A stretch of DNA of 13,275 nucleotides from an uncultured Methylococcaceae bacterium (lineage in GTDB: Bacteria > Pseudomonadota > Gammaproteobacteria > Methylococcales > Methylomonadaceae): positions 1 through 13,275 of the forward strand of contig CAIVAH010000236.1 of assembly GCA_903903765.1 (NCBI GenBank). Reading direction: 5' to 3'. Positions 8,612 to 13,110 of this stretch are shown one piece after another. The notes under the pieces are model-generated. The model was given only the letters and a program-made list of their open reading frames with translations, was not told the DNA's origin and did not search any database. Numbering within the stretch: the first letter of the stretch is position 1; each line of letters starts with the position of its first letter. Both the position numbers and the translations under genes were made by a program.

Positions 8612-9118
8612 ATGGCAGAAAACACTGAAATATTAGAAATTGAACAAAAATCCACCCGAAAATGGTTAATTATTAGTCTTAGCACCTTATTATTGTTTGG
8701 CAGTGCCGGAGGTGTCTATTGGTTTACTTCTGATAACGCTACAGAGGTATTATCCGAATCGACGCCGACACCTAACGCCGAAACAGTGTCAGAAACAGAT
8801 GAAAATCTGACACCCGTGTTTGTAGAACTAGAATCCTTTACTGTAAATTTACAACCCGATGGGCAATTTTTACAAGCATCTTTCAACTTACAAGTGCATG
8901 ATGATGAAACGGCAAAAACAATAAATTTATATATGCCACACATTAGAAGTCGTATATTATTTTTGTTATCCGAAAAAACAGCAGACGAACTGGTTAAACA
9001 AAAAGGAAAAACCACCCTCATCAGCGAAATAAAACAATTAATTGAACAACCTTTTGCAAAAGGCAGTGCCGCAATTAAAATTACTGACGTTTTAATCACC
9101 TCATTCATCATTCAATAA
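8612..9118 (+). CDS. fliL: FliL, flagellar basal body-associated protein
   Basis: FliL is an inner-membrane protein that surrounds or stabilises the stator units at the motor. The product has 168 residues. It has a short charged cytoplasmic N-terminus and one membrane helix at about residues 16-38 (RKWLIISLSTLLLFGSAGGVYWF). A T/S/E-rich linker follows, then the periplasmic domain beginning FVELESFTVNLQPDGQFLQASFNLQV. The family-typical middle reads MPHIRSRILFLLSEKTADEL, and the C-terminus is hydrophobic (ITDVLITSFIIQ). It lies 29 bases after fliK and 9 bases before fliM. No strong ribosome binding site is seen. Confidence 0.94.
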   Translation: MAENTEILEIEQKSTRKWLIISLSTLLLFGSAGGVYWFTSDNATEVLSESTPTPNAETVSETDENLTPVFVELESFTVNLQPDGQFLQASFNLQVHDDETAKTINLYMPHIRSRILFLLSEKTADELVKQKGKTTLISEIKQLIEQPFAKGSAAIKITDVLITSFIIQ

Positions 9119-9127
9119 TCACATAAG

Positions 9128-9838
9128 ATGGACGAATTAGAACTCTCTCAAGATGAAATAAACACCTTATTACAAAGGATTTCAGGTGCGACTGAAGAAG
9201 TATTTAACTTTGCGACACAAGCTCGTGCAGTGCGTGGGCACATGCCCACATTGGATTTAATTTATGAACGTTTCATCCAATTTTTACGTATCGATTTATT
9301 TGAGTTATTAGGACGTACCCCAGAAATTACAATTACACCTGTTCGTCATATTAAGTACACTGATTTATTGCATGATTTAGAAGTACTGGCTAATGTAAAC
9401 TTAATAAAAATCAAACCGCTAAGCGGTACAGCCATGATAATAATGGATGCAAACTTGGTTTATTTATTGGTCGATAAATTATTCGGGGGTAATGGTAAGC
9501 TTCAAACTCGCATAGAAAGCAGAGAGTTTAGTGCCATTGAGCAACGTATCATTCAAAAAACTTTAAACATTATCTTCGATGCTTTAGTAAAAGCGTGGGA
9601 ATTGTTATATTCAGTTTATTTTGAATATGTACGCTCAGAAATGAATCCACAATTCGCCAACATCGCCTCACCTAACGAAATCGTAGTCACGGCGTCTTTT
9701 CGCATTGATATTGGCAATATGGGCGGTGACTTTCATATTTGTCTACCCTACAGTATGCTCGAACCGATTAGCGATTTACTCTGTCATGGCTTACAAAAAG
9801 AATCAACTACTGACAAAAAAAAAACTGGGCACATTTGA
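9128..9838 (+). CDS. fliM: FliM, flagellar motor switch protein, N-terminal and middle domains (gene frameshifted)
   Basis: FliM is the C-ring protein that binds phospho-CheY and couples it to FliG. This frame gives 236 residues. The N-terminal CheY-P-binding motif LSQDEINTLL lies at about residues 5-14. The middle CheC-like domain carries the FliG-contact motif FGGNGK at residues 119-124, followed by EQRIIQKTLNIIFDALVKAW and GGDFHICLPYSMLEPISDLL. Normal FliM is about 320-330 residues and continues into a SpoA domain. Here the frame passes a 10-A run (9815-9824), adds TGHI and stops. The missing domain is in the -1 frame immediately downstream. A -1 shift at the A-run restores 314 residues, including a conserved tryptophan just after the junction. 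As written, the product would lack the FliN-binding domain. Confidence 0.93.
   Translation: MDELELSQDEINTLLQRISGATEEVFNFATQARAVRGHMPTLDLIYERFIQFLRIDLFELLGRTPEITITPVRHIKYTDLLHDLEVLANVNLIKIKPLSGTAMIIMDANLVYLLVDKLFGGNGKLQTRIESREFSAIEQRIIQKTLNIIFDALVKAWELLYSVYFEYVRSEMNPQFANIASPNEIVVTASFRIDIGNMGGDFHICLPYSMLEPISDLLCHGLQKESTTDKKKTGHI
9815..9824 (+). other. fliM: A10 homopolymer at the fliM frame break (possible slippage site)
   Basis: Ten consecutive A follow the GAC codon of fliM. In the upstream frame this reads K-K-K-T-G-H-I-stop. With a -1 shift, or one extra A, it reads K-K-K-N-W-A-H-L-I-K-H-Q-I-K-D, which matches the FliM linker entering the SpoA domain. The run satisfies an A-AAA-AAA slippery pattern and is also long enough for RNA polymerase slippage. 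It is the longest homopolymer I noticed in the window (others reach about 7). Confidence 0.75.
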
Positions 9839-10071
9839 TAAAACATCAAATAAAAGACTCTAAAGTAGAAGCAATCGCTGAGTTATGTACAATAGACTCC
9901 AATTTAAGACAAATACTCAATATAAAAGTAGGTGACATTATTCCTTTTGAAATGCCTGATAATATTGCAGTTAATGTAGATTCTTTACCCATTTTAAATT
10001 GTAAATATGGCAAAATAAATGGCCAATATGCAGTACAAGTTGAACAAATAATCGACCAATCAACTAACTAA
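9835..10071 (+). CDS. fliM: FliM C-terminal SpoA (FliN-like) domain in the shifted frame
   Basis: This 78-residue frame begins formally at a TTG but has no ribosome binding site. It is best read as the continuation of fliM. KHQIKDSKVEAIAELCTIDSNLRQILNIKVGDIIPFEMPDNIAVNVDSLPILNCKYGKINGQYAVQVEQII follows the C-terminal SpoA domain of FliM, including the LNLKVGDxIP signature and the GxYGxxNGxxAlxv end. Open reading extends upstream of 9835 in this frame and joins fliM through the A-run with W-A-H-L-I. In the C-ring this domain pairs with FliN. An independent protein is unlikely, though internal initiation of a SpoA fragment is known in some type III systems (short SpaO/YscQ C-terminal products). 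Confidence 0.85.
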   Translation: MIKHQIKDSKVEAIAELCTIDSNLRQILNIKVGDIIPFEMPDNIAVNVDSLPILNCKYGKINGQYAVQVEQIIDQSTN

Positions 10072-10104: not shown

Positions 10105-10503
10105 ATGAGTGAAGAAGGTTTAGGCGAGGTAGATTGGTCTGCAGAACTATCCGAACAAGCCCGCACAGAAAACATGCAAGATATTATAAGTACAGATGTT
10201 TTTAACGAAATAACACCTGATTATAATGAAACGGGTTCGACAACGGATCTGGAGTTTATATTAGATATTCCCGTCCAACTGACCGTAGAACTAGGCCGTA
10301 CAAAAATTTCCATCAAAAATCTCATGCAACTTACGCAAGGTTCTGTGATTGAACTGAATGGCTTTGCCGGTGAGCCTTTAGATGTATTAGTCAATGGTTG
10401 TTTAATTGCGCATGGCGAAGTTGTCGTCGTTAATGACAAATACGGTATCCGCCTTATTGATATTACTAACCCCGCAGATCGACTCAAGCGAGTCAATAAA
10501 TGA
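10105..10503 (+). CDS. fliN: FliN, flagellar motor switch protein
   Basis: FliN forms the bottom of the C-ring with FliM and docks the FliH-FliI complex. The product has 132 residues, the normal size. An acidic, unstructured N-terminus of about 50 residues precedes the SpoA domain: LEFILDIPVQLTVELGRTKISIKNLMQLTQGSVIELNGFAGEPLDVLVNGCLIAHGEVVVVNDKYGIRLIDI. This contains the family core LxVELGRT, GSVIEL and the LIAxGEVVVVxxxYGIRI block. A strong AGGAG lies 7 bases before the ATG, the best ribosome binding site in the operon. The gene stands 33 bases after the fliM 3' end, and its stop overlaps fliO by 4 bases. Confidence 0.97.
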   Translation: MSEEGLGEVDWSAELSEQARTENMQDIISTDVFNEITPDYNETGSTTDLEFILDIPVQLTVELGRTKISIKNLMQLTQGSVIELNGFAGEPLDVLVNGCLIAHGEVVVVNDKYGIRLIDITNPADRLKRVNK

Positions 10504-12667: not shown

Positions 12668-13110
12668 TTTTGTAAAGCTTGATCGACAAATTGTGAGTGG
12701 CATTGATAATTTTGTCAGCACCGGTTACAAAATTATTGAGTGGTCATACAGTTTTGTAAAGACTGCTTACAAAATTGCTTAGGGCGTTAAAAAAATTGTA
12801 AGCAGTCATTACAAAATGTTTAGGTTCGAGACAACTTTGTAAAGCCTGTTTGCAAAATTGTTTATACCGGAGAAAACTTTGTAAACACTGCTTACAAAAT
12901 TGTTTATACCGGAGAAAATTTTGTAACCACTGCTTACAAAATTGTTTAGCCGCGAAAAACTTTACAAACCCTAATTACAAAATTGTGAACACCCAAAGAA
13001 ACGTTGTAACCAGTGATGACAATATTGTTTGCCGCCAATATATTTTGTAAGCACGAATCACAAAATTTTTTATACAGGAAGAAATCTTGTAAAACTAGCT
13101 TGTAAAATGT
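12668..13110. repeat. Array of about 11 tandem 42-bp units with palindromic cores
   Basis: Left-arm hits (TTGTAA or a close variant) start at 12670, 12712, 12754, 12796, 12837, 12879, 12921, 12962, 13004, 13045 and 13087, a regular 41-42 base spacing. In the best units the core is TTTTGTAA, 7 bases (often xxACTGC), then TTACAAAA, a perfect 8-bp dyad followed by TTG. The linker between cores is partly conserved in the middle units (GTTTATACCGGAGAAAA). Units vary by substitutions and by 1-base length changes, so this is not a CRISPR: there is no constant repeat with unique spacers. It fills most of the 592 bases between fliR and the transposase ATG. The period is close to four DNA helical turns, so all palindromes would lie on one face. 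Function is unknown; terminator, protein-binding array or REP-like element are all possible. Confidence 0.85.
12752..12816. repeat. Inverted pair of array units forming a long imperfect hairpin
   Basis: Unit three (12752-12776) and unit four (12792-12816) are in opposite orientation: the core reads GACTGC in one and GCAGTC in the other. The two 25-base arms are complementary at 22 of 25 positions, with a 15-base loop (12777-12791). This is stronger than the hairpin of any single unit. It could end transcription from fliR or mark an inversion inside the array. Confidence 0.6.

Follow-up and report, generated by a model that had tools for sequence, protein, structure and literature searches.

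The window is the whole stretch of DNA that was analyzed, a contig of 13,275 bases (C236). It belongs to an assembly of 1.92 Mb in 328 contigs that is about 80% complete. The window carries a fli operon, and fliM lies there in two pieces (Table 1). The upstream piece matched the Pfam FliM profile PF02154 (profile 1–192 of 192, E 1.1e-60), and the downstream piece matched PF01052 (profile 2–73 of 73, E 5.3e-19). After the A10 run, the −1 frame reads NWAHLIKHQIKDSKVEA... up to 10071. The C-terminal SpoA domain of FliM is present, but it is not in frame with PF02154. An earlier note on this DNA had described fliM as split at a run of ten A with SpoA in the −1 frame, and the exact position of the run and the profile matches to both families confirmed this.

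The stop codon of the upstream frame starts 12 nt past the last A, with 11 nt between the run and the stop. Since a TGA closes the −1 frame just 5′ of the run, the two frames overlap only at 9814–9838, and any rescue must fall in the run or just after it. Neither piece contains a second stop or shift. The remaining fli genes of the window are open and have counterparts in four genomes (G006, G019, G034, and G018). For FlaG, a counterpart was matched in G006 only, and the compared stretches of the other genomes may end short of it. No Rfam family matched the window at gathering thresholds. Replacement by another fliM copy was ruled out, as a search of the own genome gave a single PF02154 match.

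Table 1. Features at and around the fliM break, with positions in the window.
Feature	Position	Strand	Remark
fliL	8612..9118	+	open
fliM, upstream part (N-terminal and middle domains)	9128..9838	+	236 aa, ends KKKTGHI
TGA closing the −1 frame just 5′ of the A10 run	9811..9813	+	read from the sequence
A10 run between the fliM halves	9815..9824	+	no other A/T run in the window exceeds 8
A_AAA_AAA heptamer in zero-frame register	9817..9823	+	read from the sequence; compatible with −1 ribosomal slippage
Weak A+U hairpin of 7 bp, 3′ of the run	9833..9851	+	not better than shuffles
fliM, SpoA (FliMN_C) piece in the −1 frame	9835..10071	+	TTG at 9835 overlaps TGA at 9836–9838
fliN	10105..10503	+	open, own SpoA domain

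Both fliM pieces were compared with 114 loci, and 110 loci matched both. Three of these were the window itself and four (L111–L114) were second copies of relatives already counted, which left 103; L012, L016, L029, and L035 lacked a SpoA match and were omitted. The fliM halves are in one frame at all 103 relative loci and split at none. Judged from these loci, the frame break is specific to this genome. The most similar FliM at a named locus, from a Methylococcaceae MAG (L030), was 53% identical. A PmoA/AmoA family search gave no match anywhere, not even in the controls, and so carries no information.

The linker between the middle domain and SpoA was then measured in an alignment of 117 intact FliM proteins. 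They were taken from 121 proteins (the best 120 of 2,419 matches plus a SpoA search) after the two window products and two proteins shorter than 318 aa were dropped. Between two fixed columns, the linker has 7 residues (21 nt) in 116 of the 117 relatives and 6 residues in the other one. The window has 23 nt, a net gain of 2 nt. An Arg precedes the Trp in all 117 relatives, near neighbours reading for example HDQRW; in the window the Arg is gone and the same place reads DKKK and then NW. The 23-nt linker and the lost Arg indicated that the A10 run is new. The run probably grew, and we infer this from growth being a simpler account than a lost base. A comparison with relatives, which the earlier note had suggested, thus gave a linker that differs from that of nearly all relatives and a break shared with none of the 103 loci.

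An A10 run in itself is unremarkable. When the window was dinucleotide-shuffled 200 times, 77 of the shuffles held at least one such run (mean 0.79). On the comparison above, what is not due to chance is that the run is placed exactly between two halves that share one frame at every relative locus.

The two halves were unequally conserved. In the SpoA piece, 2 of 13 columns conserved at 95% or more were changed, compared with 0–3 for the 117 relatives left out one at a time. In the N-terminal and middle (N/M) part, 15 of 85 such columns were changed, compared with 0–5 in the relatives; LSQDEI, which we take to be the CheY-binding motif, was kept. Within 9128–9814, 12 of the 15 changes fell in alignment columns 45–109, the early middle domain. 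The protein branch of the N/M part was 0.50 in the window versus 0.10 in the congener G006 and was the longest of 15 flagellar pieces fitted. FliL (0.47) and FliO (0.46) were nearly as long, and both are fast in relatives as well. The SpoA branch was not faster than that of G006 (0.31 versus 0.33). Outside the flagellum, rpoB had evolved no faster here than in G006 (0.039 versus 0.038), and a piece of rpoC had evolved faster (0.034 versus 0.000).

Branch codon models, run on a tree that we fixed ourselves, gave an omega of 0.21–0.24 for the N/M part versus 0.04–0.06 elsewhere (2dL 20.4 in one run and 15.2 in another). When the foreground was set to G006 or G019 instead, the N/M omega fell below background (0.026 and 0.040). 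No rise was observed for SpoA (0.15 versus 0.10, 2dL 0.33), and its differences from G019 were mostly at the third codon position (0.47 per codon versus 0.17 and 0.09). An omega of 1 was disfavoured for both (2dL 5.9 for N/M and 4.2 for SpoA). The N/M rise was not unique, as the FliO omega was even higher (0.30 versus 0.115, yet with a 2dL of only 2.8) and FliI was also raised (0.089 versus 0.037, 2dL 10.8); fliF, fliP, fliR, and fliE had low values of 0.04 to 0.07. Two near-identical runs gave a 2dL of 2.4 and 0.1 for FliG and of 3.6 and 1.8 for FliN. All omegas are rough because synonymous changes had reached saturation; most long branches had lengths of 1 to 8, and one had a length of 33. 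The rpoB and rpoC genes were not used in the codon model, rpoB having no value and rpoC an implausible 524.

By these measures, the SpoA piece is normally constrained on this branch, and the N/M part is, unexpectedly, relaxed. The idea that both halves are well conserved held for SpoA and failed for the N/M part, which has lost many near-invariant residues. An untranslated downstream piece should decay first, yet it was the better kept one, which points to a recent break or continued use. SpoA has no lesion and shows normal codon constraint, so the break should be recent or tolerated; purifying selection on the downstream part does not separate a rescued break from a recent one. The three readings first proposed (recent, artefactual, or tolerated) were the right set.

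Long A runs are a usual place for sequencing and assembly errors. If sequencing or assembly went wrong at this homopolymer, or if the assembler chose a run length that is a minority allele, fliM would be intact in most cells. The normal constraint on the SpoA piece is consistent with this, and the direct evidence for A10 comes from contigs. A catalogue of 5.8 billion proteins argued in the other direction. Each broken product was listed there on 3 contigs, of which the window is the longest; the 236-aa product had 2 members and the 78-aa product had 1. The fliL cluster was on 1 contig. The two further contigs thus probably end before a complete fliL or carry a different one, and they may come from other assemblies. 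For run-length variants, these contig data contained the broken form only. The best of the next matches were 59–62% identical over 92–100% of the query, and one shorter protein was 67% identical over 76%. At roughly 60% identity, none of them is a close form, so an intact close form was absent among the 120 best matches.

A survey of frame shifts also spoke against an error. We compared 42 sequences of the own genome (254,056 bases, 20,495 read as N) with 62 stretches of G006, using G006 ORFs of at least 100 aa, an identity of at least 40%, and an E value of 1e-10 or better. Among 104 matched ORFs, several of which are window genes, fliM alone was shifted (0 of the 103 others), where a break is detected only if both halves match. 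General poor assembly was ruled out for this sample. The own genome has 8 distinct A runs of at least 10 (11 overlapping matches), and 5 are in genes by open-frame reading. The four coding runs other than that of fliM all lie within open frames, as read in the own genome. Two of them lie at gene starts, in genes that are presumably gpsA-like and xseB-like, and two lie within genes that are presumably VanZ-like and TPR-like. Weighing both sides, we consider an error or a minority allele rather unlikely. If A10 is not real, the case warns how a single run-length call in a MAG can give a motility gene the look of a dead one.

A wrong bin was rejected as a source of the window. Its GC content is 0.384, compared with 0.382 for the own sample without N. 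The tetranucleotide correlation between the window and the own genome was 0.975, and 8 own contigs of at least 8 kb spanned 0.943–0.988; the value for G006 was hardly lower (0.966), which makes the tetranucleotide test a weak one. Separately, the gpsA-like and xseB-like genes have A10 at or just after their start codons (positions 1501–1510 of L115 and L116), and these may be slippage sites.

Alternatively, fliM could simply be a pseudogene that yields no functional FliM, in a lineage that has begun to lose its flagellar genes. The N/M part is relaxed on this branch, and its changed columns and codon models suit decay in progress more than a gene that is rescued well. The families PF00460 (rod), PF00669 (flagellin), PF00771 (FlhA), and PF06429 (hook/rod C-terminal) were not found in this MAG, about 80% complete. 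Rod genes and FlhA were present in all five fliM-bearing congeners tested, and PF06429 was present in all three tested. CheW-family matches numbered 2 here versus 6 to 10 in the fliM-bearing congeners. In the genus, a DNA match to fliM was found in 5 of 35 genomes and a FliM protein match in just 11 of 35, both counts including the own genome.

The absences are weak evidence because of the incomplete MAG and because 11 of 40 sampled own contigs, all under 3 kb, were read as N. In G006, the rod genes and FlhA share a contig with fliM and lie no more than about 35 kb from it, so they could be missing together. Decay is also opposed by the open state of the other flagellar genes in the window, by the low branch omegas of fliF, fliP, fliR, and fliE, and by the undecayed SpoA piece. 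Relaxation did not extend over the whole gene, as it affected the N/M part and left SpoA normal, and the gene carries no further lesion. A plain pseudogene appears unlikely to us, and less probable than an artefact. The fliE–fliR cluster is present in the own genome (G000) with the rod, hook/rod, flagellin, and FlhA families unfound there; MAG gaps, contigs read as N, or loss may underlie this.

We favour a recent, lineage-specific run-length mutation that is probably leaky through ordinary RNA polymerase slippage, and we give this reading a probability of roughly 0.45, ahead of an artefact or minority allele and of plain decay. On this reading, the A run grew in the linker that joins the FliM middle domain to SpoA, and SpoA is now out of frame. 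Going by the sequence and the comparison with relatives, plain translation would yield a 236-aa FliM lacking the SpoA domain that binds FliN and FliH. The SpoA domain of FliM forms a pair with FliN and also binds FliH (PMC4443714), so FliM without SpoA should not build a normal C-ring. RNA polymerase may slip at A10 and give some full-length FliM without a special signal, and the ribosome possibly slips too, at A_AAA_AAA. The outcome would be a leaky, incidental frameshift rather than a programmed switch.

Slippage at A10, which the earlier note had raised, is plausible from published cases. The frame break carries an A/T run of about 9 or more, namely A10, and at this length slippage may be frequent enough for some full-length FliM. 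Citrobacter rodentium tssM1 has A11 located 28 nt before the stop and about 20% slippage (PMC4256274). In Shigella spa33, a run of 9 leads to slippage in under 14% of the RNA (PMC6925163), and slippage was proposed for eight genes of Blochmannia vafer (PMC3017870). Slippage or ribosomal frameshifting was also proposed for Brucella melitensis flgI, fliG, flgF, and fliI, and a premature stop is listed for B. ovis fliM (PMC7410920). Against the favoured reading, A runs are less slippery than T runs for E. coli RNA polymerase and have to be longer. This kind of event, a slippage-prone poly-A frameshift, is already known. Among the papers listed, judged by title and the opening of the abstract, none was on fliM read by slippage.

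The fliM case resembles these systems in part. Like tssM1, it has a premature stop soon after a long A run and a needed C-terminal domain in the other frame. For tssM1, the two forms and the ratio between them were shown to be important (PMC4256274), whereas here the run is seen in one lineage only. Blochmannia and Buchnera likewise have single A-run breaks in otherwise open genes that are possibly rescued by slippage. They differ in their extreme AT bias; the three Blochmannia have 114 to 153 coding A tracts of at least 9 (PMC3017870), whereas the own genome has a GC content of about 38% and five coding A runs of 10 or more. Spa33/SctQ is a C-ring protein related to FliM and FliN with a slippage site and short forms. 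There, slippage makes the short form from an intact gene (PMC6925163); here, it is the long form that would depend on slippage. If A10 is real and tolerated, a core flagellar motor gene in a moderate-GC bacterium would depend on slippage, and the question arises how little full-length FliM a C-ring needs.

Motility genes undergo homopolymer phase variation in Campylobacter, Helicobacter, and Bacillus (swrA), where the run length opens or closes the gene. The present case shares the run-length change in a motility gene and differs in that one allele was seen, in contigs. A proposal that the break tunes C-ring stoichiometry or phase-varies motility was not supported, as the break is in 0 of 103 relative loci, the folds are no better than those of shuffles, and only the broken form is catalogued.

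In a programmed version of slippage, the ratio of long to short FliM would be regulated, by analogy with the two forms of TssM1 or the variants of SctQ/Spa33. The distance from the run to the stop would suit such a device, as would the constrained SpoA and the heptamer in register, a −1 slippery motif. We know of no role for FliM lacking SpoA. Spa33, a FliM/FliN homologue, has a slippage site (PMC6925163). Table 1 of GeneTack sets at least five fs-genes and a conserved site as criteria, and the present site is absent from all 103 relative loci. No downstream stimulatory structure was found in three folded stretches (z −1.12, −0.70, and 0.39), since 27, 50, and 127 of 200 shuffles folded as well or better. 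These data give no support to a device that is conserved or programmed, and we hold regulated slippage to be very doubtful.

FliM might alternatively be made as two polypeptides, with a stop at 9838 and a restart at the overlapping TTG that gives a SpoA-only protein. Besides the overlap of start and stop, there is precedent in SctQ-type proteins, which make SpoA-only forms from internal starts (PMC6925163), and in GeneTack, where three large "Flagella" frame-transition clusters were ascribed to translational coupling, but with a +1 transition. The TTG has no clear Shine–Dalgarno sequence by eye, a separate SpoA protein would no longer be joined to the N/M part, and none of the 103 relative loci is split. 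Two separate polypeptides are thus extremely improbable.

The unequal constraint on the halves admits one more reading, in which the parts of FliM are uncoupled. The fast-changing N/M part would be made in excess and the constrained SpoA only by slippage or restart at A10, and limited full-length FliM or free SpoA would give an altered C-ring. We consider this a shade less credible than regulated slippage. If true, it would be the flagellar counterpart of the SctQ/Spa33 length variants.

Two further features of the window were recorded. After fliR, near the contig end, a degenerate tandem repeat occupies 12753–13072, with units of about 42, 83, and 125 bases. A small gene at 1658–1951, presumably FlhB-C-terminal-like, lies beside a gene at 856–1674 that we take to be FliK-like, and both were matched next to fliE in G006, G019, G034, and G018.
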